Positions 1 through 24,300 of a DNA stretch of 46,247 bases are shown piece by piece. Under the pieces are notes generated by a model, which saw only the letters and a list, made by a program, of their open reading frames with translations, searched no databases and was not told where the DNA came from. The position numbers were made by a program, and so were the translations under genes. How positions within the stretch are numbered: the stretch's first letter is position 1; the number at the start of each line of letters is the position of its first letter. Source of the stretch: Gemmatimonadota bacterium. Lineage in GTDB: Bacteria; 4572-55; J002. The stretch is taken from assembly GCA_003697105.1 (NCBI GenBank), contig RFFQ01000168.1:1-46247 (forward strand), read 5' to 3'.

Positions 1-633
1 CCCTTGTCTTTTGAGAAATTTGACCCTGTTATTGATTCCTTCGACAATGCCATTTGAGACCCTGTTGATGAAGAAATTCAAGATATATTCTTTGTAGTTT
101 TTCAGTGTTTTCAAGAACAGTTTGACGTATACATTATTGAGGGCTTCTGCTTTCTCAATCCAGGCATTGAGTCGATTTTCGCCTTCGTCTCGCTCAAGCA
201 TTTCATCAAAGATAGCTCGGAATTCCTCTTTGAGTTGATAGACCTTTTCCAACTCTGGTGAACATTTGAAAGCCTTTTCCAGCAGTTGTTTTTCGTCGTC
301 ATAAAGCTTATCCGGATGTTTTAACAGCGCCCAGCGTAAATACTTGAGCCTGACTTCATCCGGAAATTCTTTCCGTAAAGATTTGCGGCATCTGTCCAGA
401 GCCGTATTGATGTGGTTGCTAACATGAAATCGGTCTACAACAATGACTGCGTTAGGCATTCGTTCTTTGGCAACGGAGATAAATCCATCCCACATATCAC
501 AGGAAAATACGGTGATTTGCTGTAGAAATGATTCCCCGAATTTTTCCTGCATATATTTGATAATAAAGTCCTTGTTTCTCTGTGATAGTACATCGATGAC
601 ACATGCTCGTTGAGGCGTCTTTTTCAACCCTCT
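1..633 (-). pseudogene. ISL3-family transposase, C-terminal fragment
   Basis: Reading the minus strand from 633 gives about 211 open codons that run off the left edge. The fragment shows ISL3 (DDE_Tnp_ISL3) hallmarks: a C-D-M-W-D-G-F block with the second catalytic Asp (near 495-510), then V-V-D-R-F-H-V (near 425-450), and near the left edge N-G-I-V-E-G-I-N-N with the catalytic Glu (codon 40-42). The N-terminal zinc/HTH half and the first catalytic Asp are absent: an in-frame TGA lies at 634-636, and no ISL3 N-terminal sequence is recognisable in any frame up to 840. ISL3 transposases are usually 400-450 residues, so this is a 5'-truncated remnant, or one disrupted by a frameshift or deletion. 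It indicates past insertion-sequence activity beside the giant locus. Whether the 3' end is intact cannot be seen. Confidence 0.85.
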
Positions 634-2317: not shown

Positions 2318-3250
2318 TTAGGGTAACACGGCGGAAAGTGAAATCCGGTGAGCATTCCCCAAATCGCTGTCGTTATCCATCATAAAGGCATAATCGAGTT
2401 TGAGCCGGTCAATATTGATACCCACACCGGCAGAGTAGATAAATCGTTTATCCACATCCACCACACGAGACAGCCCGAACCGCATCATAAACACATCTTC
2501 CAGCCCGCGGAGGGGCAGACCCAATTCGCCACCACCGGTCACCCGCTTGATCACTTCTTCTTCGCTACCCGACAGGTCTATTTCCGTCCGTAAGAAATTC
2601 AGCGGGACAAAGGCGATTCCCACCGCATACTTAAAGGGGGAACGCTGTTTTTCTTTATTTTTATCCCAGTTGACTTGCGTGAAAATATCTCGCAACATCA
2701 TCCCTAAACCAAATCGCTGATCCGGCCAAACGGAGATCCCCCCATCGACACCAAATCCGGTGGCGTTACCATCGGTTAAATCGGAATTCACCAGTAAAAA
2801 TTTGCCGGTAATCCCTGCCGAGACGTAATCGTTTAATCGGCGAGCGTAACTGTAAGAGAGGGTGTTTTCCAGCCATGATTTTTCATTCTGGTTGGCATCC
2901 GTCAGTTCGGAGGAGCCCAACGCTACCCAGCTCAACCCGGAGGCACCGGTACCGGCATCCGGCAAGGCATACGCCACATAGCCGTTATTGATGACCTCAT
3001 ACAGATTGGCATACATAAACGTCACTTCCCGCTGGGTCAGATAGCCCAATCCGGCGGGATTCCAGTACGTGGACGACGCATCATCTGCCAGCACTAAAAA
3101 CGCACCGCCCATACCTAACCCCCGCGCGCCGACACCAATCGGTGCAAATGCCCCCTCAAAATTGGAGGACGATGTCATCGAACCTTGTCCCCACCCGGCG
3201 GCAGGGCACAGCAACACAACACTGAGCAACATTACTACTAAGCTACGCAT
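2318..3250 (-). CDS. PorV/PorQ-type (UPF0164) outer-membrane beta-barrel protein
   Basis: A 310-residue protein with a signal peptide (about residues 1-22, cleavage near G-W-G-Q). Right after the plug-like start comes the family signature G-A-R-G-L-G-M-G-G-A-F (42-52), then A-D-D-A-S-S-T-Y-W-N-P-A-G-L (56-69), typical of UPF0164/PorV/PorQ proteins. The rest is alternating polar/hydrophobic strands with turns rich in N, D and G, consistent with an outer-membrane barrel. In Bacteroidota PorV carries cargo of the type IX secretion system and PorQ belongs to its attachment machinery; many relatives in other phyla have no proven role. GGAG lies 8 bases upstream of the ATG. It is the next gene after the giant repeat protein on the same strand (75-base gap), so a role in exporting or anchoring that protein is a reasonable inference, but it is not proven. 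Sure of the family, unsure of the exact subgroup. Confidence 0.8.
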   Translation of the reverse strand: MRSLVVMLLSVVLLCPAAGWGQGSMTSSSNFEGAFAPIGVGARGLGMGGAFLVLADDASSTYWNPAGLGYLTQREVTFMYANLYEVINNGYVAYALPDAGTGASGLSWVALGSSELTDANQNEKSWLENTLSYSYARRLNDYVSAGITGKFLLVNSDLTDGNATGFGVDGGISVWPDQRFGLGMMLRDIFTQVNWDKNKEKQRSPFKYAVGIAFVPLNFLRTEIDLSGSEEEVIKRVTGGGELGLPLRGLEDVFMMRFGLSRVVDVDKRFIYSAGVGINIDRLKLDYAFMMDNDSDLGNAHRISLSAVLP

Positions 3251-3325: not shown

Positions 3326-6300
3326 TTATTGAAGCACCGCACCTACTTTTTTGTAAACATCTTCCGCACCTGAGGTGTAAGAGACGCGAATGATAAACAC
3401 ATACAGCCCATTATTAACCTTATCACCGTTGTCATTGAGACCATTCCAATCCATACTGATCGCGATACCTCGCTCAACGGAATCAAAGAAACCATCCCAC
3501 GGCACCGTCGCCACCAGATCACCCGCCGCATTGTAAATGCTGACTTCAATCTGATCAATCTGCTCTTCGGACACATCCTTGAACCGGATCAAAATTTCCT
3601 GTTCGTCATTCGGCTGCGGAATGGGACTTGCCACAAAGACGGCATCTTCGGTTACGCGGTAGCCGCGCATATCTTTGCCATCGGTGGTATATTGGCGATA
3701 ATTCTGACCTTCTAACTGTCCGGTCATGTATTTTCCTTCATTACCCGCACCATCAAAGACCCGCACGCGATATTTGTTCTTGCCATCGTCCATAAAGACC
3801 CAAATGTCAAACGGTACAAATTCCGCACCCTGCGCAATCGTAGCCAGATTGGTCTTAGACGGATACCACGTGCCATCTTTTGTGGCTTTTGTGACCGAAT
3901 GGGTTGAGAGGACGGGGCGGTCATAACTGCCGCCGGATGACGGACGCACGCCCGGATTATCACCCGTGAAGATCAACTGGCGCAGAACAAGCTCCCACAC
4001 ATCATCATCAACTTCACGCTCGATAAAGAGGGTCGAACCGTTTTCGACCATACCCCAGAAGTGCGCCGAATCCCCGCTGGTCTCAAAGTAGAGTTCAAAT
4101 TGCTCGTCATCCAGTGCCGGCGGCTGGTTATCAACCGTCATGACCAGACCTTCATACACCGAGATCAAGTTGCCGGTGGCACCCGCGTACATCGTAATCG
4201 GGATCGTATCCGTTACCGGCGCAACAAATCCCAGTTGGTTATTCACATCGATCACATAGGTAATGTCAAAATAGCCATTACCGTTGGGGATGATTTCCAG
4301 ATCGTCATCGACTGGGATAGGTCCGGAACTCCGCTGGAATTGGTTATCCACTCCGCTAAAGTCGATATTTAAGCCCTGCACGATCTGGTCAAACGTGTTC
4401 CAGATGGAGCGGATTTGCACCCGGTCTCCGTTTTTGTACACGCCGCGCAAACCGACCGGACGTTCATCGATAAAGTCTGTGCCACCGGGTACTACTTCCG
4501 GCGTCATGGAGGTAAAGTAGAAGGTAGAAGTAAACGGCAGACGCATATCATTCCCTAAGCGGTCGGTCAACGTGACCCGAATTGTGTACTGTCCATCAAC
4601 CGACCCATCTGCGGGCAGGGCATCATCAAACAGATAAACAAAGGTATTGTTATCACTGAACGCCGCCCGCCCTTCTACCGGACCTGCCGGACCTTCGACC
4701 GAAAAATCGTAGCCATTCACCTGATCAATGCCGACCCCCGGAATGCCATACGTGCGGGTAATATCGGTGACGGTTACTTCAACCCGGTCAAAGCTGACAT
4801 CAATATTTGCCTCATTTGCCGGAGTCACACTTGTTACCCGTGGCGGGCGCGTATCGTAGAAGAAACTGCGTGCCCCAGAGACCGTGTGTGGCGATGGTTG
4901 GGCACGATCAACCGCATCGACTTCAATGATGTACTCTCCGTTCCATTCCTCAGTGGTACCGAGAGCGCCGTCACCAATCAGCAGACTCAAACGACCGTCA
5001 CTATATTGCTTGGTACCGGCAATCTCCTGCTGGGAGCCATCCGGTAAGATGCGGATCAAGCGAATTTCCGAATTTTCCACATCAATACCGGCGCCGAGGT
5101 CTTCCAGTTCCACACTCACTTGGGTGACATCTGCTGTTTTCCAGCGGGTGATGTCGGTGGGTTGGGTTCCAACGGTATCCGCCTCCACATAGTAGCTGAG
5201 GAGTCTCGGTGCCGCGTTGTCGTAGATGAAGTGATACCGGTCGGGTACCTCCACCACATTCCCCCCGGCATCGGTCAGCGTTCCTTCGATCACATACAAA
5301 CCTTCTTCTGTGATCGGTTCGTTGCTCAAATCGATATACGCACTATCCACATCTTCATTAAAACGGAAGGTCGTGTTGGTCAGACTTCCATTCGGACCGG
5401 TAATCGAATACTCCAAGAAGGTGATTCCGGCAACCACATCCGCATAGGGATTGCTATCGGAAATTTCCAAAATCAACTGGGTAATCGGTTGTCCGTTGTT
5501 ATCCAAGCTAACCGGCTCTTCCGTGGTACGGGTGATCGGTACGGAATCGGTCTGGACATAAGCTCCGCGCACCCGCGGTGCGGTATAATCCACGATGAAC
5601 GGCACGCTGTGGTAACCAAACTCGCGTAACACCAGTGCGTAATCCCGATCCGAGATCTCCAGCAGGTGTTCTTCATATTGCTCGTAACGGCGGGCGTCCA
5701 TATCAAATTCCATCCCGGGCAGTTCTGGCTGAACGTCTGGCATATTTGGTTCGCGTTCCGGCAGGCGGATCGATTTTTCAGGGGTATTCTCCTGCAGTTC
5801 TACCGGTTCAACCGTGCCTTTGTGAACCGTGCCCGCCTCACGGATAGACTTGCCCGGTTCTGGCATGGTTTCACGCGTCACTTCATCCAGTGATTTCACC
5901 GCTACTTCTGGCTGGAATGCCAGCGCTTCCGGCACGGCTTTGGTTGCTTCAATGAGCGGCAAGCCCCGATCCGCCGGTGAAGGCGGTACTAGACCCGGTA
6001 AGACCGAGACATTGATCGAATTGCCGTTGAGGTCATTTGCCCGTACCCAAATATAATAGAGACCGTCCATCGTTCCATCGGTTTCAATTGGGTTGGGGGA
6101 TGGAACCCTTGCTCCCATCGTCACGATGTTATTCTCTTCATTGATTGAATACCCGAAGCCCACCAAGGGTATTTCACCCAAATTGGCTTTTTCGAGTTTC
6201 ATATCAAAGCTAGAGACATCAAAACCGATGTAATTTTCCGGTTGTTCATTGACCGTCACCGAGAAGCTCCCCACAATATCGGTGGTGCCCGGCGGGTTGG

Positions 6301-9300
6301 CATAGATGTAATGCGGTTCGGGCGAGCTTTCCGTGATGATCGCCCCTTCCACATCATAGCGATAATTGAAGCGGAAAGAGAGTGACGAACCGGTCGCACC
6401 ATTGCCCAAATTATCCACCGGCAAGACCCGCACTTGATATTCACCCAGTTCGGTAATTGCCCCGCCTGCCGGACGGAACTGAATGGCATGATAGACCGGA
6501 ATTCGCACCACCTGACCTTGAATCTGCTCCCCACTAGGACTGATCAAGACGATGTTCGAGGCATCAAAATTGACCCCCACACCCTCAAAATCATGATCGT
6601 ACACATCATCGCTCAAGGTGGCAACGATGGAAGTCACCGGCTCGTAAATTTGCGGTAAACCTTCAATCAGGTTGGTGGTATCGGGATAGACATAAACTCC
6701 GGTCACTGTGGGCGCTTGAGTATCGTACACAAATGTGGCGGTATCGGCACGGGTGGCGGCATTACCCAACTCATCCACCGGATGAACGTGGATTGTGTAA
6801 ACCCCATCCGCCGAACCATCCAATGGTAAAGTGGTATCAAGCTCATATTCCAGCGTAGAGGCAGAAGATGGATTCTCCGGCGAGAAGGTGCTAAAGATGA
6901 AGCGATCCCGCGCGGCAAAATCCCCTTGGCTGGAAACCGAAATCCGCAAGCCAGCCACTTCCAGTGTCGAGCCGCGTGTACCGATGGCGACTTCACCGGA
7001 GTTGGAACCAAAGACAATATAATCATTGGAATTGATAAACCGGATAACCCAATCTTCCGTGGCAAGCTCCGCTCCATCGCCCAACGGACGCACGATGATA
7101 TTCCCACCCTCAGAGCCAACGTCTGACCGGAAGACCACATTGGAGATGGTCGCCACCTCTACCGGATAAGTTTCCGGCAAGGAGACCGTTAGTGTACCAC
7201 TCAAGGTATTGCCAAACGGGTCCGTAACCCACATATCGGACGCCTCCGGATCGAGGAAGCTCTCGTTATCCATTGCTTTTGCCCGTACGGATTCCACCGG
7301 GATGTTGGTCGAATCGCCACCGCTTTCCGGCGTTGGAAAGATTGCGATTTCCGCCGGGATAGTGTACGGATGGGCGACATCCTTTGCCACGCTAAAATAG
7401 ACCGTGTCTGGGGTGGCAAGATTGCCGTTCAGGTCTTGGGTACGAACAATCATCTGGTATGTGCCATTAAAGAGCGGTCGCTCATATTCGGCAATGTGGA
7501 AGACCAGCATATCGCCAAACACCCCGGCACGCTCTAGGTCGATCACATCTGCCGGGAAGATCGAATCTCGCAGGGTGATGGTGGTGGCGTCAAAATCCAC
7601 CCCGGCCGTGTGCCAGCTAGAGCCACCATCCCGAATAATGGCATAGACACTATCCGGAGCGGTACTGTACGGTAGACCGTTATTTTCATCCGGGAAGGTC
7701 GAGATAATCGTTGGGCTAACGGTATCAAATCCATAACGGAAGTTGAACTGACTCGATCCCACATTACCGGCAACGTCTCTCAAGGTTACGCGTACCGTTA
7801 CCAGATCATCTGCTTGCGGCACGGAATCCCCAAAGGTGAAGACAACCAACGATGGACTCTGAATCGAGGTGTAGCCCAAATAGGTACGGCCTCCGGCGGT
7901 GGCGTACACATCTGCCGAATCCAGACCCGTACCGGTATAATGCAGACTATCCGAGACACTCAATTCAATTTGGGAATTGCCCGGCACTAACTCATCGATG
8001 ATCAAGGTAGGCTCGCTAAAGGAGAGTTCAACCGCATCCAACATCGCCCGGGTGGTGTATGGGGCTTGGGTATCCACCGTGAAGTAAACGGAATCCACGA
8101 CCGCCAGACTGTCCACATCACTGCCGCCGTTGCCACTCAGGTCAATCGGCTGGACAAGCATCAGATATTCACCGTCTGTCGAACCATCCGGCAGACCCAG
8201 CGCCGGCTCAGGGCGAAAACCGAGATAACTAAAGGAGCTGGTTTCGCCGACCGTGGTGAAGACAAAGTAATCTCCCGCGTTATAATCAGAGGCAAAGACG
8301 GTAAAGCGCAAGACGCCGTTATCGGTGGTAAAGAGCTGACTCACCTGACCCGTACCTTGCGAACCGGAACGGGTTCCAAACACTTGGAACCGGGTTGCCG
8401 TTTGCCCCGGTGCCGCCACCATCGTGATGATCCAATCTTCGGTTAGGACTTGAGATGGTTGAAGCATACTCACGGCGCTCATCTCCCCGCTGTTGCTGTT
8501 GACCGGCGGCATGTCGATAAATTCCGGCGAGGTTACAAATGCTTGACCGGTACTCACCCGTTCAAAATAGAAGGGCGTACCGCTAATGGGTTCCTCAGTT
8601 GCCGCATCCAGCACTTGAATTTGTTCACCCAACCGCGAGAGGTCAATACCGACACCGGCTTCTACAATCTGCGCACTGGTGGTATCCAGCGGCGCCATAT
8701 CGGCATTGACAATCGCACCGTCCACCGGATTTGTGCGGCGAATTACCGGCGCTTGGCTATCCTGCGTAATCACGAAGGAAATCGGATCCGTCTCGGTGCT
8801 GTTGCCGTTGCGGTCAGTCATTACCACCGAGAGTTCATATTGCCCGTTCAACAAAACGGGGTCAGCCGGTACAAAATAGACCGTGTCACCGGCTTCACTG
8901 TAGAACGTCACATGTGGCATTTCCAGACCTGCCGGATTGATAATCCGTAGATAAGTGGTATCCGGGTTCGTCCAGATACCCGCCGGTTCACATGATGCCG
9001 AGCCGCTGAGGTCTTGGAGAGACGCCCAGAAGCGCGGGACGCTACCACCCGGCTCAATGACCAACACTTGATATTCCACCGGGAAGGTTGCCAGTAGTTC
9101 CGGTGGGGTAGTATCAATGCCGTAATTGAACGTAATCAGCTCGGTGCGGCTGTTCCCCGCCAAGTCGGCACAAGTAACATAAACTCGCACTTCACCTTGA
9201 GTTTCCGGTACGGTGAGGAAAGCATATTGCAGTTCATTTAGATTCACTTCCACCAGATCAAGCGCCATGCTATCGCCATCTGCCGGCAGGAAGGAGGCAC

Positions 9301-12300
9301 TCACAACCACGTCCGCCACATTGAACCCAGAGCCGGCAAACTCACCAACGGCATCACTGATTGCCAGATCAAGAATGGTTTCATTGGGGAGGATTTCCAG
9401 ACAGATGTCATCCCCATTTTCAAAGGGAATACCACCCAATTGTTGATCCGATACGTGCGGCGCTTGGGTGTCATAAATGAACGGCAAGGTCAGCAGTTCT
9501 GCCTGATTGCCATTCACATCCACCGGTTGCACCTGAATGGTGTAATTGCCATCATCGGAGCCATCCAAGGCGAACGGTTCTTGCAGCATCCACGTCAAGG
9601 TGGCGATATTATCCACCAGATACTCTCCGGAAGCTTGACCCGGCACCAGTTGGTTCATACGGTCATACAAACCGATATGCGAGCGGGTGAAGTCAATCCC
9701 GCCGCTATAGTCCGTCACTTGCGCTGTGACCCGATCCAGTTGGGTGTAGGTGCGGAAGTAGAAACGGTCACCAATACTGTACGGCGGAACGGCTTCATTG
9801 ACGGTGAATTCGTAGAAATAACTAAACGGTTGGCCCACAACCCCATTGACCGGCAGGGCACCCAGTTCTTCACCTTCAACAAAGTAGTAAGTGAGGTCTT
9901 CTACCGGATCGATTTCGGTGATCGTTACCGTCCAGCTATCGGCGGGTGCATCATCGGAAAGGGCAACCGGAGTGCTCATGGATCCGCCGGAGATCGCACC
10001 GCGATCATCAAACAAGGGGCGCGAGGCAAAGGGTAGCCGCCCGACGACACCCCGCGGCGACGCCGACAAGACCACCGGATTGACTTGATCCGTTCCGATA
10101 CTAAATTGAATCTCCCGTACCGGTGCAAAATTGCCGTTGTTATCCAGCGTAGTGACGATCAGGGTGTAAAGACCTTCCGTCAAGTTGCCTGCCACATCAT
10201 AAACCAGCGAATCTCCTTCTATCCGGCGATTGCCCAACGGAATCGAATTACCGGCTTCATCCACCAAACCCATAGAAGAATGGGTAAAATCAACACCCTC
10301 AATCTCACAATCGGTACCAAAATCTTGAATCAATGCCCAGACCGTCGAGAGGCTACCGAGTGAATACCCCTCTTCCGGATAGTTCGCCAATACCACCGGC
10401 GGGACAAAATCCACCCCGTAGATAAACGGTATCACGGCGGAGGTGATATTACCAGCAACATCTTGCGTGGTCACGGTGATCCGGGCTTGTCCACTCTGGC
10501 GCGGCAACGGATCGGTAAACGTGAACCGCAGTTGTTGACCGACACGGACGGTTTCACCGGCGATATCCGTGTTATTGAGACGGAATGCCACGGCGGCAGA
10601 ATCAATCCCGGAAGCATCCGCCATCAGATTCACCCGAATCTGGCTACTAACCGGTGCGGCATCGGCAATAGAGACGGTTTCCACGACGAAATAATCCCCC
10701 GGATTGAACGGCTGTGAGCCTTGTTGGACTACGAAGCGGAGTGCTCCATCAGCGGCGTCAAACGGGATGCCATACTGCCCAAAGTTCGGCTCGGCTCCGG
10801 AGACAGAGCCAATGACACTGTAGGCGTTGCGCCCTAAACTGATCGTCCAGACTTCCGTTTGGATACGAGCGGGGTCTAGGATTTGAACCGGACTGAGCAC
10901 CCCATTGGACGGAGTACCCACATCAACCGTATCCACAATGGTGGCACTCGCTGTGGCACCACCAAAAATAGGATAGCAGTAGAGTTGATTCTCATCCACT
11001 AAATCCAGTTCGATGTTATCCACAAAAAGAGAGCTAACGCCCGGCGCTTGGGTGTCGATGGTAAAGAAGGTACTCTCCGTGGCGGCGTCACCGGTGGTAT
11101 CCTCGGCATAGACGCGGATTTCATATTGACCATCGGACTGGGGATCGGCTTCTAGCGGGGTATCCAATACCCAGCGTACCTGACTGACAGTACGGGTAGC
11201 CGAGACCGTCGTGAAGACGAAATAATCAGTTGGCTGGTATTGCCCCGGTAAGACCGTGAACGTAAAGAGCGGGTCACCATCTACCGTAATTGCGGTATAT
11301 TGCTCGCTGGTGCGTCCACGTTGGGATTGCATCCCGGAGACCGAACCGAAAACAGTGAAAGAATCGGGGGAGACAAAGCTGACAAACCAATCTTCACTGC
11401 GGATGCGGTTCTGGTTTTCTGGGATGAGGGTAACAGGGGTCATGTTGCCGCTACCCGTACCGAAGAAGCGAACGGGCGATACCGCTGCTTCTGTCAGGGT
11501 GATATATTCCATTTGGGGTTGGCTACCGGCGACGCGAGTGCCATCGTGATAGAGTTCGATGGTAGCGGTTGCCAGTTGCGACCCAACCTCGGCAATGCGG
11601 GCACTGACCTCGTAGAGCGGCATCTCCGCAGCACTGAGAATCGCATCCGCCGCGGGGGTCGTGGTAAGGATGCCCGGCGGGACATTATCCGGGCGGTAAG
11701 TAAAGTATGCCGCCCCGGAGTGAGTGTAGGAATTACCGTTAAAATCGAAAATGACGGCATCAATGCGATAGCTACCTTGAGGCAGTTCCACGCCGGTGAG
11801 GTCATAGATGAGGGTAGAATTGCCCTGAATCATGGGAGCATCCAGCGGGATCAGTTGGTCTGAATCCACATGGGTCAGGCTGGCGGCGCTTCGGCTGAAG
11901 TCGATCCCAGAAACATGGGGTGGAATGGGATCACCGAGGTCACGCAGTTCGACCGCCAATTCTGTTAAGCTCCCGGTCGAAACCACCTCTCCATTTGCCG
12001 GATCGGTAGCGACCAACGTCGGAATACCGAAGTCGTAGGCATAGCGGAACGGTATCTGAATCAGATCGGTATAATTCCCCGCTTTATCGGCAATCAGTGC
12101 GCTAAGGATGGCATCACCGTTACCAGCGAGACCTTCCGTAATACTATAAACCGCTTGATCGGCGGAAATGACAAAATTTCCATCGATTGACGTATTATTA
12201 AAGAAAAGATTCATCGTCGAGCGGCTTTCTGAGAGTCCGGCGGTACGGTCGGTGAACGTGAGATAGAAGCCGACCGGCGGTTGTTCCCTTTCCTCTGCAG

Positions 12301-15300
12301 GAAGCGTATTAAAGACGAAGCGGTCACCCCGATTATAGCTGGTGGGGGATTGGGCGGCAAAGACACGAAATGCGACGCCGCTGCCACTACCGTCATTGTA
12401 ATCATCGGATTCGTAACGAACGCCGACAAGTCCGGTATTTTCCTGTAGCCCCGTGATGGAACTCCAGACCTGATAAGCAACCGGGGAGGTAAAGCGAATC
12501 TCCCAGACATTGACAGGCGCCCCCGAGCCAACACCGAGGATGTTGACAGGTTCAGTGATGGTCATGGGGTCGGTATCGATAAAAGTCGGAATTGTGGCAA
12601 AAGCTTGTGGGAAATTCCAGCCAATGAGGTCTCGCACCACATTATCGGCAAGGAGGTCATGTTGCTGCCACTGATCCGTTGCCCAGACATCGACGGCGGC
12701 GGCATCGAGGCGCGGCGCTTGGGTATCGTAAACAAAGGGGATATCCAGTTGGCGGACATTCCCGTTGTGATCCACGGCGGTAACAGCGATGGTATAGGCA
12801 CCATCATCGGCGCCATTTTCCGCGAGCAGTTCTTCCAGCACAAAGCCGACGGTGACGAGGGTATCCTGACCGGCTGGAGTATAGAGAGTATCACGTCCGA
12901 CAAGGTCGCCACGGGGTCCGGAGAGGCGGACAGTGGTTTGAGCCACATCCACCCCAGCGCCACCATCCCACAGGGTAACCCGGACATCGGAAAGACGCGG
13001 AAGAATATCGACAGTAAAGCGATCACCGGTGGTATAACCGGGTTCGACCTCTTCCACTACCAGATAAAGCCCCTCACCAAAGGGGTGGTAGCCAGTGGTG
13101 GTATAAGGTACGCCGACGGTACCGATGCTATCCTGTGTACCAGAAAATGAGCCGCTGACGGTGAAGTTTTCAGACGAAATAAAATCAATGGTCCAGGTTT
13201 CCATCGGGGCGGTATCACCCACATCGAGTACCTGCATGAGACCAGCGGTGGGCAGCCCGGTATCGATAAAGCGCGGTTGGGCAGGATACGGGGTCGCATT
13301 AATAAATTGATTGGCATACGGGGTGGTGTAGAGCACCAACGGCGGAATTTGATCCGTACCCAGAGCAAACAGGGTGGTATCCTGCCGGACATTGCCGTTG
13401 TTATCCACTGCGCGGACAATCATTTGATAGACATCCGTGGGCAGGGGTTCTAGGGGTTGAACCTGAACGGTATCCCCGTGGACGGTCTTCGTTGCCGGGA
13501 AAAATTCACCCAACAGATTGTAAATGAAAATGGTCGAAGCGTCAAAGTCCACCCCAGCGATGAGGTCTGGATATTGGGGACGGGAGCGATAGGTATCTGC
13601 GAGGCGTGCCCAGAGTTGGGGTTGACTGGCTTCTACGATTGTATTTGCCGCCGGATAACGGTTGAGAACAAGCGGGGCATCGACATCATATACATATTCG
13701 ATAGGAATCACCGTTTGACTGACATTCCCTGCCCGATCCACAAAGCGGATGCGGACGGCACCGGTATCGTTAATGGCGGGAGCATTCGCCAAAAGAGTAA
13801 TCATAAAGAGGTCATCGCCAAAACAGACGGCATCCACCGGAATGGGTTGCCCGCCGAGAGTCATTTCAACTTGTGTGGTATCCAAATCGGGGCAGGTGGT
13901 CTGAAATTCGATGCGGTCAGATTGGTCTAAGCTCGCACCAATCACGTTCATCTGACCGGGAGTGAGTACCTGACCATCACCCCCTTCGACGTGGGAAAGC
14001 ACGATGGGTTGAAAGATCACCGGTGGCTGGCTATCAATGGAAAAATCCAGAAAGGCGATGGTTTCCTGACCGGCTAAATCCGTGGCATGAACTTCCACCA
14101 GATAGGTACCATCTGCCGCTAAGGGAGTGTTAAAGACGTAGCCAAGGCGCGGCAAGCTGGTTTGTGCCGAAACGGTGGAAAAGATAAAACGATCCCCCGC
14201 CTCGTAATCCGAACCGAGAACTTGGAAGCGGAGCGCCCCGTTATCCGTCGTATAAACCTCACTGACCTGCCCGTTTGCTTGCCGCCCGGAACGTGTACCA
14301 AAAACGGTAAAGGAATCCGGTACCCCCTGTTGATCTTCAAAGATGGTGATGAACCAATCTTCAGTGCGAAGGCGGTCTTCATTCTGAATGGTCAAATTCG
14401 CGACCGTGCCCGGATTGCCCGGTAATGCCGTCACCGGCGTGACAAACGCCCCGTAGGTATTAGGCACTTCATAGAAGATCGACTGTCCCGGCGGAACATT
14501 CACCCCTTGCACACTCACATAACTCACGCTCGGGTTGGGATTAAGACCCATATTCGCATCCACAAGTTCCACCCACAGGGTATCCAGCGGCACATCCGCC
14601 TGATTGAGAATCGAACCATCTGCCGGATTCGACGTATAGACCAGCGGCGCGACATCATCTACCGTGACAGTGAAATTGACAATTTGCGGGTCGGTACTAT
14701 TGCCATTGGAATCCACCCCGGTAATGGTCAATTCATAGAATCCATTCGGCAGTGGCGACGCCAAGTGAAGGGTGACTTCTACGGGGTCTGTTCCGGCGGA
14801 AATCACGAGGGAATCTCCGCGGTCATACTGCGGATAGAGCGTTCCATCATCCAAATTCAGCAAGGATAAGCTAGCGGAGGCGACTCCAGAAGGCTGACGA
14901 TCTCCAATGTCGGTCAACCGTACCCACAACGAATCCAGTTGATTCGCCACAAAGACTTGTCCCTCCTGAGGATAGCTCTCCTGAATTTGCGGCGGGTCAA
15001 AATCATAGGCGTAGCGGAACCGCTGGGTAAACTGGCTGCGATTGCCGGCAAAATCCACTAATTCCACCTCAAAAGTACCAAATCCATTTTGATTAGGCAG
15101 GGCGACCTCCAAGATGACCCCCTCCAACGTGACCAGCGTATCGATAATCACGGCGGCAGGATAATCAAAGCGGAATGTGCTGGCGGCAGTATTAATCCCC
15201 GTCCCGGAAGGATTATCCGAGGCGTTCAGCCGCAATTCGACCGATTCCAACACCTGTGCCGCTTCACCGGGCGCATAGGTGCTAAACGTAAAGATGTCAC

Positions 15301-18300
15301 CGGGGTTAAAGCGCTGGCTCCCCTGCGTAATACTAAAGAAGAACGCACTATTATAGGGTTGGTAGAGAGACCCCACCGTCCCATACGGCTGAATACCGGA
15401 AACACTGCCCACAACTTGAAATGTATTGATTCCGATAAACGTTACCGTCCAATCTTCAGTATAAATTCGTGACGGTTGGACGATGACCGGTAAAGACATC
15501 TGCCCATTGGAGGGCAACCCGTTATCGGTAAAGACGGGAGGTGTCACCGAGGCATCTTCCGTACCACCCACATAACTGCCCAGACGTTCATAGACATCCT
15601 GATCCGGTTGGGTTAAAACGGTCGAACCCACTACAATGGAATCCACCGCCGCCGGACGGGTATCATAGGTGAAATTCACAATGGATGTGCCCGGACTAAA
15701 CCCATTATTATCCACGGGGGTAATTTCCACGGTGTAAAGTCCATCTTGCGAGCCATCTTCCAGACGCGGGGTATCAAGTTCCCAACGCAAGACCACCGTA
15801 TCTCGACGACCCGGCGTAAATTCCTCAAATAATTGTTGCCCGTTCACTAAATTACCATCAGGATCATACAACCGGATGGTGGAGGCTTCCACATCGACAC
15901 CGACCCCCTGATGATCGGTAATTGTTGCCGAAACGGCACTTAAATTGGAGAAAGTACGGAAGCGGTAAACATCCCCAAAACCAAAGCCGGGGATAGTTGG
16001 GGTCACCATCAACTCAACTCCTGAGCCAACGGCATAGGTATCCGATTGGTACACCTGACCGACCCGTCCACGATTGCGTTGCAACCCGGCCAGAGAACCC
16101 CGCACGGTGTAAGTGGTATCACTGGTAAAGCGCACTTCCCAGCGTTGGGAGGGGGTATCAGCCCCGACGTTCCGCACGGTCAACCGCCCATTACCGCCCG
16201 TCACACTGCCGTAATTCACAAAGACCGGTTCTGAAGCATAACTATCCCCATTGATCACTGCCCCATCTGCCGGACCGGACGCTAAAATCTCGGGCGGTAC
16301 AAAATCATAACCGATGCTGAAAAAGACCGTATCTTCTAGCGTATTGGCGTTAAAATCGACCAAATCCAGCCGCAACTGGTATTCTCCATTGGTCAACGGG
16401 TCGGGCTGCCCGTTATCACGAAGATAGATAAACAGGGTATCCCCGCGGAACGCCACTTCATCGGGTTCAATGGGGGTTTCCGTGGAATCCAAGAGGGTGA
16501 TCGAACTAACAGCGGGATCGACGCCTGCGGTCTGCCATTGGTTCCCAACATCACGGAAATTCACCCAGAGGGTATCTACCGGGTCATCAATAATCGTAGC
16601 GTTATTGGGTGGGTAGGAGGCCACCACCACCGGCGGTTCAAAATCCCGCCCGTAGGTAAACCGGACGGAATATGCCTCGCTGTTCGTCCCGTAGTCCTGT
16701 AAACTCAGGATGAAAAAGCCATCCAAATTAAATTGGCGCAAGGTATCTCGTACCCCAAAACGCAAATGGTTCTCATCCGCGCTCACTGTTCCATTGACCT
16801 GTTCATTTTCAAAATAGAATAGAGGCGCGCTATTATCCGGGTCAAAACCGGTTCCGGCAAACGGAACTCTCTGTGATTCATCTTGGATTTCCGCCACAAA
16901 CCACGGTTGCTCTTCCTGACGGAGTGCGCTCAAATCTGCCGTAATCACATTTTCGCGCCAATTTGTCAAACTCAGCGTATCCACAATACTATCAGGATGC
17001 CCCACCGCAAAATAGACCGCCACCGGATACGGTGCTTCGGTATCAATAATAAATTCAGCGGTATCTACCGGTGCGGCATTTCCGGCGCCATCTTCTGCGT
17101 AGGTTCGCAACTGGTACACCCCATCCTGACTGCCATCCGGCACGCTACCCAACGGATAAATCGGCGGATCGGGCGTAAATCCCAGATATTGCGTATTGCG
17201 CGTTGCCGAGATTGTGGTAAAGGTAAACTCATCACCCGCATCGTAGGCGGCACCGTTGACAATAAAACTAAATGCCGGCGCACCGTCCAACAACACCACA
17301 TATTGTTCGTTCACATGGCCGGAAGCCTGATTTCCGGAGACCGTACCGTACACATTAAACGTGGTAGCGGTTTCCATGATCACCCGCCAATCTTCGGTAA
17401 CCAACCGTTCTGCGCCACCGGGTTCAATTTGCGGGTGTAGCATCGAGCCACTCGGTGTCGACATCCCTTGATCGTGGAAGATCGGCTCCGAAATAAACGC
17501 CCCATGCCCCGGCGCACTATAGTGGAAGTTCTGCCCGGATAGCGGGTTTGCGCTGATGTACGGCGGTGGCATGACGGAAATATAAGAAGCACCGTAATTC
17601 AGACCCACATTGGCATCGATTACCTCTGCCGCGAGGGTATCCAAATCCGCCAACCGGTCTGAAAAGACCACATCCCCATCTGCCGGAATCGTACCCACAA
17701 TTACCGGCGGAGCATTATCGAACGTGACTGAAATTTCAGTCTCATACGGGGGTGCCAGATGATTATTCAAATCTTGAGCGTAAACCGTTACGGCATAATT
17801 ACCATTGGATAACGCGCCATCTGCCGGAATCCAATAAAGCAGACTATCACCGATCAAGCCTTGATCCGCCGCCGGGAGCAGTTGATTTGAACCCAACGCA
17901 ACCACTTCCATAAAGGAAGCCGGGCTAAGACCCACCGGCGTCATATCCCGGTCGCGCACAATCGCATACAACGTATCAATTGGCGACCCACTATAGCCTT
18001 CGGGGATAGTACGAACCACCACCGGCGCGGCGTGGTCATACTGGTAATCAAACGCAACATCAATTTCGGCAATATTCCCTGCTCCGTCGATCAGGGTTAA
18101 TCTTAACATACCTTGACCATTTCCACCGGGGGCGCGATCAAAGGTATAAGCCAGTGAATCACCCGCGACCGTAACAACACCTACCGGCGATTCACCCACG
18201 AAGGGGTGATCAAAATCGACCGTTAGCGTTGACAGCCGGTGGTTCAATTCGCTGGCATCCGGCTGGACAGTCACTTGAATAGCGGTTGGGGTTGCTCCGC

Positions 18301-21300
18301 TAATTCGTTCGGCAAATTGTTCAAACACAAATTTATCGCCCAAATTGTATTGGGTGTTATTCGCCGCCGCTTGGACGGTATAGGTAAAACCTTCATTAAC
18401 GGTATAAGCCTGACCCACTACCTGATTCTCGGTCACCAATTCCCCATTTTGATAGACATCGTAATGGCGCGCGCCGGTAAAGATCAATTCCCAATAGATG
18501 TCACTTTCGGGGCTAACCGTGCTATTATAGACGAGTGACATCTGCCCTTGGGTTACCCGTCCGGCATTATCCACAAACGTGGGACGGGTCGCAAAGGTGG
18601 GGGTAACATTGCCTTCTGCGAGTTCGGTCACAATATTGAGTGATGCGGGTTGTAAGACCTGCGAACCCCAACGGAGTTCGGCAATTTCCGGCATTTGCGT
18701 ATCAATGGTAAAGGTCGTCGTATAGACCGGCGCCACATTGCCATTCCGATCCACCGGCGTGATCGTCATTGTGTAGTCACCATCGGCTAAGGGAGCATCC
18801 GGTACCAGCGCCACCCAACTAAAATTACTGCCAAAATTTGGTACAAATGTGCGAATGGTATCCAACGTGACATTGGTAATGGCAATCGTCGTGGCATTCA
18901 AGTCAATCCCGGAGCCACCATCATCCCCAAAAGCGACCGGGATCACGGTGAGTGGTTCGGCAACCGTGCTGAGATGAAAGGCATCATCGATGCTGTATCC
19001 CCCACCTGTGCCCCGAATGCGGAAGCGAATCCCATCACCGGTAGCAAAGGTGTTAGACTCATAAATTTGACCCACACGACCGTTCTGTTGGGGTCCGGAG
19101 ACCGACCCTTCCACCGTGAACGTGGTGCTGGTAATCATGGTAATGACCCAATCTTCTGTGGTGGAATAGGGCCCAACTTCCAAATCTTCCAAAATGGGGG
19201 TTGTGGGGTTCCCGGTATCCACAAAAATCGGGTCTGTCACATACAGATTCGCGCCGGCGGCAGTGCCATTTGCCGGAGCAACCGCCAGCACTTGCGGCGG
19301 AGTCACATCATATTGGAACGTAAATGGTGAGACCACCGTCGCACTATTGCCTTCCACATCCACCGCGTAAACCCGAATAAAATAGTCACCATTTTCCGCT
19401 TCGGTATCCAGCGGATCATCCAGAGAGAGCACTAAGCGACCGTTTGCCGGTTCAGGGGTCAGCGTGCCCGACAGCGCTTGCCCGCCGGCATCTTGCAGAT
19501 CGATATGGGAATGATCCCAATCGACACCGGCACCGCGCCCTTCACTCAATTCAGCGATAATCTGACCGATTTGCGATTGGACCAGCGAATCGGGAGCTGG
19601 AATAGTCCTTACGACCGGCGCCCGGACATCTAGATTGAAGAGGAAGGAAGCTTCATAAGCCCCTTGGATGGTATTTCCGGCAAGGTCGTAGGGTTGAACT
19701 TGGAAGTAATATTCTGCATTTTCGAGCGCTTCGACCGGTTCAAAATAGATCACGGTATCCCCAACGGCGGTTTTGGTACCGGAAATTTCCGCGCCGGTTT
19801 CAGATTCAAAAAGCCGTATAGTTGTCCGCACCACATCAATTCCGGACGCCTCTGGATGAGCCAGACGGCTCGCCGGTACCGGGTCATTCAGGCAAACTTT
19901 GATGCGGAAAGCGTTACCTAGAATGGAGTCCACAATGGCACCCGGTTGCGGGTAGAGACACGCCTCTACAATATCGGGGTCAATGGTATCAAAGATGAAG
20001 GCGGAGGTATCCGGCGGTGCTTGATTGCCGAGCGAATCCTGAGTTGTAACCACAATGCCATAACGCCCATCCGCGGAGCCATCAATCGGTAACGGTAAGA
20101 AGTTGAGTACCAAGAGGGAATCGCCCTGAGTCGTTTTGGTAACCGGCACACCTCGCCAGACATCGCCGGCAGAGAGTAGTGAATCCGCTGTTGGAATCGC
20201 CAGTTGGATGGTCGAGGTTTGGACATTCGCCCCAATGCCAATCCCATCATTCAATAGGGCGGAGACCGACGAAATGGGTTGATTTTCCGCACTATTCACC
20301 GGCGGAAGAGTCGCGACAACCAGTGGTGGTGTATCATCAAAGCGGAAGGTAGAAGTCGCGGTTGTGAAGTTACCGTCGCGGTCATAGGCCTCAACGGTGA
20401 AGGTGTAAGTACCGTCGCCTTCTAGAGCTTCGGTAAGGGTGAGATAGATCGTATTAATGCCATCGGTAGAGCGGACCCCATCCAGAGATTCACCGCTTGG
20501 GCTGAGCAGGGTGATGGCGGAATTTTCCAGATCGACACCGAAGCCGGGGTTGCCGAGATCACCGCCATCCTGTAGTTGTGCGGAAAGGACAAGCAACGAG
20601 TCCACGGCTTGGTTAAGCGCCGGATAAAACTGGGTGACGGCGGGTCCAGTGGTATCGCGTTCCATACGGAGGTTTCGTTCTGCCCGGCTGGGTACGGTTT
20701 GGGAGAGAGCTTGGGCAAGAACGATAATTTTATACGTACCTTCACTGAGTCTTCGTCCGTTGGCATCATTACCGGTCCAGAAGATGGTGTGCCCTTGGTC
20801 TTCCGTGGGGAAGCGAATACCGGCATCAATGGTTTGAAGGAGTTCATCAACGTAGTACGTGCCAAAGGTAAAGACATCGCCGGGTTCAAAGGGGGTAGTA
20901 CCGGAGTAGATGGCAAATTCCAGCCCATAAGTGGAATTCGTATAGAGACCTTGGTCAATGGTAAAGGTATCAACAATGGTATAAGCTGAACCGGTATCCC
21001 GATAAGCAAGTGCCCATTGGGTACCTTCAGCGGAGATAGCCTCCACGCGCCAGTCATAGGTGCGGGCGTTGGAACCATCGGTTTCTACGAGGGTCATGCG
21101 CCCTTTACCCGGAGAGGGGTTGGCTGATTGGAATTGAGGAATCGTGGCGGCGGTGGTGATGGAGCGGACTTCTATCTCGACTTCGCTTTGGCGGTCCACC
21201 TCAAAGGTGATGTCGGCACCGTGACCGTTTTGCTGGACATTTTCGATGGTGACGGCGACATCAATGCTGATATTGAGTTGTTCGGTAACTTGGCTGGTGA

Positions 21301-24300
21301 CACGGTTTCCAGCGACATCTTGCCCATCGATAATAAAGTTATAAACACCGTTGGGCATGGTTTCACCGTTGGTATTGGTACCATTCCAGCTGACAAGCCC
21401 ACCGTCATTTTCATCAGCGGAGAAGGTGAGTTGGCGGGTGATATTGGGGTCACTGGAATTAATGATGGTGATGGTACCAATGATATTTTCGGTGACGCCA
21501 AAGCGGAAGCGAATATTGCTAGATTGTGATGGAGGCGAATAACAGGTATAGAGACGTTCTCGCCCGAGCCAGACCGTGGGACAGACAGGCTCATCATTAT
21601 CGGAGTCAACGATAAAAGAGGGACGTTGATTATCAATGACAAACGTTCGTTGGATGGCAGATTGCCGCGAATCCGCCTGAATGATGATGGTCATGGTATC
21701 GGGGTCGGTACCGGGTTGATTGAAGTGGAAGTCATCGCTCGGGTCTTCTGGAGTACCGCCATCATGCGTGCCGTACCAGACAAGGGTATTTTCGCCGGAG
21801 TTATTGGGTGCTGGTGGATTGGAGCGAGCCACGGTGGTAATTTGGATGAGATCACCGGCACGAAACGGAGTATCACCATGGACAACACGGAACATCAAGC
21901 GGGCATCGGTAAGAGGAGCGGTTTCGGGTTGGTAATTTTCATTGATCCAGTACAGTTGGTTGGTGGAAAGGGGTTGCCCGTTATTGACCGGGGTTTGGAT
22001 CCCATTTCCATCCGTGAAAGTAAGACGAAATTGGGTGGAATCATCAAAAGCGACCGTCCACTCGCCGGTGGGCGTCGAATCATCAGAGACGGCGAGGGTA
22101 TCCACAAAACCATTGCCGGTATTGTTAGGATTGATAGTCACACAGGAGACAAAGGCTTGGGAGGTATAGAGCCGCCGGAGGCGTCCATCTTCGTCATAGA
22201 GTTCAATTTGGACGAAGGAACCTGGTCCAGAGAGGTTATATAAGATTTGTGTCGAATCTTTAACACCATCAAAGATAGTTGGGCTAAAGGGGTCATTTTC
22301 AATACGGAGGTCACTGACATAGACCTGCTGGTTGACTGAGATATAATCAAAGACGAAAGTAGAAGTATAGATGCTTTGATTAGGTTCGGGGATGGCATTA
22401 TCGACAACAGTGACACGGATAAGGTAGCAACCATCATCATTGGGATCGGCAATTTGGTTATCTCCGATGAGAAGAAGCCGGAGTTCGCCAGTATTGGGAT
22501 CATATTGTTGTTGACCGTTTAGACGTCCACGCGGCCCGTAGAGTTCAATTTGAAGCAAGTCTTCATTGATACCGGAGCCAGTATCGGTAATAAACGCGGA
22601 GACGGAGTTCAGCGGTGTACTAATGTATTGTCCGCTGGGCGGATCAAATTCAACCACTTGTGGGTCATCAAGGTCTGGATTAAAGATAACGGAATCCACC
22701 TGAATGGTAGAGCGATTGAAAACTTCATCCCGGGCGCGGGCGAAGATATAATTGACGCCGTTGAGAAAATCGGGTGAATCTTGAAGGTCGAGGGCAATGG
22801 TAAAGAGCCCGGTAGTGGGGTCTGTGGTGGCAGTACCTTGGCTAATGGGTAGAATATCATCGTCCTCATCATCTTGGGTATAGCTTGGGTCATTATCGAT
22901 CCAGACTTCGACAGTGGTATTTCGTTCGCTGACACCGGTGACGGTAAGGGGGTCATCGTTCGTCCAGACGGGAACATCGATAAACTGGGGCGGTACGGGT
23001 GGGGTAACGTCCACCTCCATAATACCGGCGGTTTGAGCAAGGGTGCCGTCATTGACAAATTCAGCGCGGAGCTGATAGGTATAGGCACCGCTGGTCAGAT
23101 TCAGTCCGTCTTGATAGGGGTTCCAGGTTAATTGTTGGGAGATGCCGCCGTCCTGATAGATAGCAATTGGATCGGCACAGAGGGTATCAGCCGAATCGAT
23201 GGTCAGGGTATCAACGGGAAGACCGCGCGAGTTGTAAAGAATGACAGATACACAAGCATCCGCCGCTAAGGTATATTGCAGGGTAGAGGTTTCAAAGACA
23301 AAATCACCGTTGGGGGAGAAGGTTTCGGGCACAACGGTAATGTTTTGGATACCGAAGTTCTGTTGGATATCAAAATCAACGAACTGGGTATTCCGGTTTT
23401 GCAGGCTATCAAGGGCAGTGACCACGATATAGTAATCATCATCGGGCAAGGAATAGCCGTGTTGGACGTAGTATCGCATTTGCAGGCGACCATTGGGTAA
23501 CCGGGTTTTCACGATGGAGTCTGCTGGAATCGGGGTAATATCGGAAACAGGTCGCAGATAAAGTGTGGAAGCGTTGAATGCGGGACCGATACCAGCACCA
23601 TCATTGAGAGTAGCTTGGACATAGAGCGCGCCACTGTCATTTTCCGGAAGTTGAGAGACAACCGAGCCTTCTACCGGGGTGGTGGCGATACTGGGAGCAG
23701 AAACATCAATATTGATAATCTGGATGGCAGTGGTATCCTGCGAGGGATTCCCCACCGCATCTTCCGAGAAGAGTTGAAGCGTGTGCACTCCTTCGGAGAA
23801 ACCGACACCGCCTTGATCGACAATCATGCGGAATGAACCATCAAAAGAGATGGGGTCGGCATCGGAACGTGTAACGATACCATCAATGATAGGGATAACG
23901 GTAGCATTTGCCTCATCAACGGAGCCTTCCACCGTGATGTAGGAGGCACGTCCCCAGAAAGAGTTGGTGGATTGAGTCCAGATACCGGGTTCAATATCAA
24001 AGATTACGGGAGCGCCATCGGGACCAGTGAGGTCCACCAACACCGCGATTACACGTTCAATGGAAACATTTCCATCGAGGGTCGTTGCGCGGAGGCGTAC
24101 TTGGTAACCGCCGTCATCGGCGATACCATTGCCATCTGCATCAGCGGGACCATTGAGGGTCACTTCGCCGTTCCACAACTCCAGTTGCGGGTTGACCAGC
24201 GCATAGCGCAGGATGTTATTGGCGAGGGTATCAACCACATCACCTTCCAAAGTCTCAACAGTGACCGTCATGCGGGCGTTTTGAGAGATTTCATACTGAA

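Follow-up and report, generated by a model that had tools for sequence, protein, structure and literature searches.

A repeated module of about 92–95 residues in a giant protein from a Gemmatimonadota bacterium is, with high probability, a nested insertion domain: it interrupts immunoglobulin (Ig)-like host domains whose strands resume on both sides. The protein is encoded by one open reading frame (ORF; positions 3326–44893, minus strand; 13,855 aa as listed, no internal stop) in the 46,247-nucleotide stretch of DNA analysed here, contig RFFQ01000168.1 of assembly GCA_003697105.1 (the window). The protein holds exactly 15 copies of the module, and its C-terminal half is an Ig-like array that bears modules. 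The best overall explanation, which we consider likely, is a self-contained surface insertion domain that was acquired a few times, multiplied by duplication, has relatives in FlgL, FlgK and Wzc, and would serve as a side branch. The family and its architecture of 15 nested copies in a super-repeat are new, and the fold of this kind of insertion domain is already known.

Fifteen nested copies in a repetitive Ig-like array

A profile hidden Markov model (HMM) built from the 15 hand-bounded copies found the same 15 in a search of the whole genome and no more, the number given by a sequence-only reading made of this DNA earlier. All positions named in that reading lie inside HMM copies, and the copies at 10673–10942 and 6884–7150 are ones that it did not list. 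When each copy was left out in turn, the profile of the other fourteen recovered it in all 15 cases, with independent E-values (i-E) from 2e-5 to 4.5e-25 (11 to 74 bits); in a control search of the giant protein, shuffled or reversed, no score exceeded 2.3 bits. Pairwise identity among the copies is 15–47%. The signature motifs proposed from the sequence are approximate: a Trp and a final (G)D-x-F block occur in 15/15 copies, but the exact E-D-W is present in only 7/15 and the G-S/T-x-S-G-like turn in 11/15. Searches of Pfam, NCBIfam, PHROGs and PDB sequences with the 15 window copies returned nothing significant, and the module passed the cut-off of none of the Ig-like families (Big_*, FlgD_ig). 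No Pfam model thus claims the window copies, and the earlier description of an undescribed insertion domain stands at the level of sequence families; its likely distant relatives have, however, been solved, as set out below.

The Ig-like array begins at residue 8080 (residue i starts at base 44893-3(i-1)), and its units open with D-x-x-x-P and are matched by Big_13 and related models. Once the modules are cut out, 31 Ig-like units of about 106–133 residues align end to end. Alignments made with MAFFT that mixed module-free with occupied hosts were misaligned and were excluded. Within the array lies a six-domain super-repeat in four copies (7382–19309, minus strand), with host types in the order E-T-n-L-T-n (D1–D24).

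The insertion site follows the host type; all copies lie on the minus strand. In E units, the module enters after strand A, at host position 20–22, and thus occupies the A–B loop: m03 (18962–19243; leave-one-out i-E 3.7e-20) in D1 (18704–19309), m06 (15950–16240) in D7 (15665–16306), m09 (13001–13288) in D13 (12728–13354) and m13 (9746–10030) in D19 (9473–10090). T units also receive it after strand A, at position 36–42 in a longer, extended A–B linker, as in m04 (18314–18595; i-E 9.2e-9) in D2 (18038–18703), m07 (15275–15550; the most typical copy, i-E 4.5e-25) in D8 (15005–15664), m10 (12302–12601) in D14 (12035–12727) and m12 (10673–10942) in D17 (10412–11056); D5, D11, D20 and D23 are also of this host type and carry no module. 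In L units, entry is between strands D and E at position 69–77, practically one alignment column: m05 (17210–17497; i-E 3e-18) in D4 (17045–17719), m08 (14171–14446) in D10 (14036–14659), m11 (11204–11482) in D16 (11057–11689) and m14 (8249–8539) in D22 (8075–8761). The D–E loop also holds m15 (6884–7150) in D25 (6725–7381). The two remaining copies, m01 (21827–22150; i-E 2e-5) and m02 (20855–21139; i-E 5.5e-9), sit in a seemingly equivalent loop of two FlgD-like units. The modules therefore occupy different loops, as the sequence-only reading had stated.

AlphaFold2 (AF2) predictions of intact hosts give the same picture. For the E unit D7 (mean predicted local distance difference test (pLDDT) 91.4, predicted template modelling score (pTM) 0.82), seven host strands are split A|B–G by a separate beta module; for the L unit D22 (mean pLDDT 77.8, pTM 0.61), the split is A–D|E–G, again by a separate beta module. 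The module has a pLDDT of about 80–95 in the L-host model, and modules are mostly above 80 in both. The models thus support a host fold that is complete around the module. Of the two outcomes that the sequence-only reading had named as refuting, a stretch belonging to the ordinary host fold and a full match to a Pfam family, neither was obtained. Hosts are continuous in sequence and predicted fold on both sides of the insert, and homologous hosts without it exist.

The module could instead be a long-hairpin elaboration, an ordinary part of the Ig-like host fold. Each host type does have one fixed loop, the hosts are likewise beta-sandwiches, and the lower confidence of the L-host model (pTM 0.61) is a point against our reading. 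Yet AF2 places it as a separate domain, module-free sister hosts of similar length occur (D3, D6, D9 and others, and the empty T hosts), homologous inserts are found in unrelated proteins, and the module profile has no similarity to the profile of the host Ig unit (hhalign probability 0.8%). We consider an elaboration of the host fold very improbable.

The number of copies needs few events. On a tree of 24 module-free hosts, the four host types require 3 changes, which is the minimum, compared with a mean of 13.0 after shuffling; host type thus matches position in the super-repeat, so that a few acquisitions and duplication of the six-unit block account for the 15 copies. The module would have been acquired at 3–4 sites (the A–B loop, the D–E loop, the FlgD loop and perhaps the T linker separately) and then multiplied with the super-repeat, and we infer that 3–4 acquisitions plus duplication suffice. 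Only 4/8 T units are occupied, suggesting that gains or losses continued at that site. A point against this history is that the tree of the modules alone is poorly resolved, which makes the number of acquisitions a parsimony estimate.

The earlier phrase 'inserted 15 times', taken as independent insertions, is not supported: duplication of the super-repeat explains most copies. A mobile coding element inserted fifteen times independently would fit the several loops that hold a module and the varying occupancy of T hosts. We nevertheless regard it as scarcely credible: the site is predicted by host type, the most similar copies share a site (m08/m14, 47%; m07/m12, 44%), module guanine–cytosine content equals that of the region (52.7 versus 53.1%), and a tandem-repeat scan of the window DNA was empty, so that no recent copying is seen.

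Relatives in phage particles and bacterial surface proteins

The sequence-only reading had called the hosts unrelated. This is not so in the window, where Big_13-like hosts and FlgD_ig hosts have related Ig-like folds, but hosts that are truly unrelated to each other carry the module in phages and in genomes other than this one. Viral contigs yielded 35 loci when scanned. In these loci, 33 ORFs matched the window-only HMM with E<0.01 (Z=1000), the strongest at i-E 4.6e-15, and the reversed viral-locus sequences gave no match. Between the window module profile and the phage inserts with a GNTGNGT motif, hhalign gave 96% (E 3.4e-9), compared with 0.7% for reversed profiles. The mutual profile match between window modules and phage inserts in head decoration (HDPD), tube, sheath and tail-tip proteins extends over most of the length.

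Several phage hosts enclose the module. In a head decoration protein of 222 aa, positions 1–116 of the HDPD model (PF02924) are stretched over residues 10–218 around it; other hosts are the tail tube (PF18906), tail sheath (phrog_23) and tail tip (phrog_687). A tail structural protein of phages Ab19 and Bhz54 carries the module at residues 41–118, and the corresponding protein of Suso at 33–117, and DLP_1, PSV3 and AXL_3 have the same tail protein without it, so that occupied and empty sites can be compared among related phages. In another HDPD protein (locus L075) and a cement protein (L104), the module is a terminal attachment and not an insertion, and a myophage sheath (L108) has two modules in tandem. 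Another head decoration protein (L083) appears to contain two successive modules within one HDPD domain. By the window-only profile these virion inserts are thus the same domain, in several unrelated hosts, although most have one copy (some two) and many show a GNTGNGT ... DPxG sub-form. No description of them as a family was found in the literature searched.

Phages carry other add-on domains of this general kind. Phage Ig-like domains belong to known Ig-like families and are often found at protein ends, whereas the window module is matched significantly by no Ig family. They were treated by Fraser et al. 2006 (cited in PMC10684548) and are discussed in PMC9230969. Like the module, they are beta-sandwiches added promiscuously to virion proteins, and weak binding to surface glycans is their supposed role.

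Of 192 diverse genomes, 19 (the window's own among them) carry the module by the window-only profile; with a widened profile the count was 30 of 386. Its bacterial hosts include FlgK, flagellin, FlgE of the hook, propellers of the lactonase and FG-GAP types, and surface proteins with FlgD_ig; bacterial surface proteins are already matched by the window-only profile, and the flagellar proteins, beta-propellers and FlgK D2 were reached by the wider profiles. Scanning genome contigs with a family consensus gave one named locus, in a metagenome-assembled genome of Armatimonadetes. Every identified host of the module is a virion or extracytoplasmic protein, and in the solved structures of its likely relatives the domain faces outwards. 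In several bacterial proteins (L067, and also L029, L025, L065 and L053), the module itself appears to be split, its first ~37 profile positions lying ~60–70 residues from the rest, as if another domain sat inside the insertion domain.

Probable kinship with FlgL/FlgK D2 and Wzc motif 2

Two solved domains resemble the module. D2 of FlgL is a 5+3-strand sandwich inserted in the middle of helix alpha3 of D1, is missing from Bacillus cereus FlgL and resembles D2 of FlgK (PMC6155364). In Wzc, motif 2 folds as a jellyroll of eight strands and about 97 residues; Wzz lacks it, and it projects radially without contacting its neighbours (PMC8285477). Foldseek returned FlgL (5ZIZ) with a probability of 1.00 from both AF2 models, and Wzc with a probability of 0.9–1.00 from the L-host model; among compact PDB matches of the E-host model, FlgL was the best. 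The module thus appears to share the beta-sandwich fold of FlgL/FlgK D2. The E-host model also matched many two-domain antibodies, which were discounted for their high root-mean-square deviation.

Profile comparisons lead to the same proteins, with the FlgL and Wzc links running through intermediates. The window-only module profile matched FlgK D2 (hhalign 94%, E 2.2e-7; reversed profiles 0.7%), and a profile of window, phage and FlgK rows matched FlgL exactly at D2 (E 8.5e-8). The last profile also matched a Wzc-like tyrosine kinase encoded in the window's own genome (L117; contig C14, 10460–10660), in which a divergent copy lies at periplasmic motif 2 (E 7.7e-5), and two further proteins resembling bacterial tyrosine kinases in other genomes. 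An N-T-G-x-G start and a G-D-x-F end are common to the module and these FlgK D2 and Wzc relatives.

Likeness and difference can be set out for each. FlgL (PDB 5ZIZ, 7C7Z) and FlgK (PF21158; 4UT1) D2 are exposed beta-sandwiches of ~80 or more residues that are inserted in a host and absent from some relatives; their flagellar hosts, by contrast, are helical, and the E-x-W and GSVSGxQ motifs belong to the window form. With PF21158 (flgK_1st_1; gathering cut-off 24.2 bits), no window copy matched at E<=1; four members of the wide alignment do match, and that alignment itself holds four FlgK rows. Wzc motif 2 (PF23607, of the capsule export tyrosine kinase) is similar to the module in predicted structure, in its absence from Wzz and in the Wzc-like kinase of the same genome that carries the domain, and differs in its periplasmic helical host, its marginal sequence similarity and its occurrence as one per chain.

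Several results count against this kinship. The E-values from Foldseek lie near 1e-3, and its output does not show the aligned residues, so that the module as the matched part is an assumption. A PDB search by the profile without FlgK rows did not return FlgL D2, with nothing at E<=10, and we lowered the FlgL sequence claim for this reason. Sequence matches to Wzc are weak (in the 1e-4 range); with PF23607 (WZC_N; cut-off 27 bits), the best E among 37 family members was 0.0067 and no window copy matched, and one PF23607 protein of another genome gave no convincing match by profile. The same three features, an unmatched FlgL without FlgK rows, marginal Wzc matches and modest Foldseek E-values, would fit a true insertion domain that came to resemble FlgL/FlgK D2 and Wzc motif 2 by convergence on a small beta-sandwich, with a family limited to the giant-protein, bacterial surface and phage modules. 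We consider such convergence unlikely, given the window-only match to FlgK D2 with its clean reversed control, the common start and end motifs, and the fact that in several genomes the wide profile picks out FlgK and Wzc-like proteins, with the match at the correct place along the protein. On the predicted structures and these indirect sequence links, kinship with FlgL, FlgK and Wzc is likely. A link between FlgL/FlgK, Wzc and the phage and giant-protein modules was not found in the literature searched, a set that most subscription papers fall outside.

The giant protein and the role of the module

The giant ORF fills nearly all of the 46-kb contig, in a genome of 4.18 Mb that is 97% complete. 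Its listed start is GTG; a signal-peptide-like stretch near the N terminus follows a later ATG, which is the likelier true start. The N-terminal half (window 22400–44600) is module-free and consists of ~30 pairs in which FSPNGDG/FlgD_ig-like units alternate with Ig-like 'GxAEPxAxVxxxVD' units. In the C-terminal half, a charged Pro/Glu-rich stretch of ~75 residues (~12985–13060; window ~5716–5941), unlike the remaining protein, breaks the Ig-like array, and the final domain is FlgD-like. A gene for an ISL3-family transposase (DDE_Tnp_ISL3; window 1–627), cut by the contig end, lies close to the giant gene.

The next gene, 75 bases downstream, encodes a PorV/PorQ-family protein (2318–3250, minus strand; NF033709, 118.6 bits, cut-off 90), and the genome contains 89 matches to Por_Secre_tail, the type IX sorting domain. 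Together these suggest type IX export, and the giant protein is probably a surface rod exported by that system. It speaks against this that the C-terminal 200 aa contain no type IX sorting domain over the cut-off, their matches being FlgD-like models and, weakly, the PorU end.

We envisage the module as a self-contained beta-sandwich that would plug into loops exposed on extracytoplasmic proteins, from which it would project sideways. On the long Ig-like rod, modules would form side branches that might provide a sticky or shielding surface while leaving the backbone undisturbed. Such branches might make weak glycan or cell contacts, our first guess, by analogy with the phage Ig-like domains as presented in PMC9230969; lateral packing or stiffening is the second. 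A decoration or adhesion role is therefore a tentative proposal, and that it is argued from analogy weighs against it. In the mechanical alternative, the same domain would stiffen or pack neighbouring Ig-like domains and touch nothing outside. The regular order of the super-repeat and the proposal that FlgL D2 reinforces subunit contacts (PMC6155364) favour such a role; the radial Wzc motif 2, which touches no neighbour (PMC8285477), and the single isolated copies in many unrelated hosts do not. We consider a purely mechanical role rather unlikely.

The module and its relatives probably form one superfamily of insertion domains, as yet without a name, whose members decorate exposed surfaces. 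Somewhat less firmly than the kinship itself, we favour a single superfamily that counts FlgL/FlgK D2 and Wzc motif 2 as its solved but unconnected members and that would have been inserted again and again in exposed loops of unrelated extracytoplasmic machines. These would include the heads and tails of phages, the hook, junction and filament of flagella, capsule exporters, beta-propellers and giant rods of Ig-like domains, and the module would be a portable part for decorating surfaces that phages and bacteria exchange. If true, this would name and unite a domain that now goes unannotated both in bacterial surface giants and in the decoration, sheath, tube and tail-tip proteins of phages, and would link the module to two domains whose structures are solved and whose role is unsettled. 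Because the giant protein holds occupied and empty sites of one host type side by side, and related phages exist with and without the module, its role as an add-on would be directly testable.

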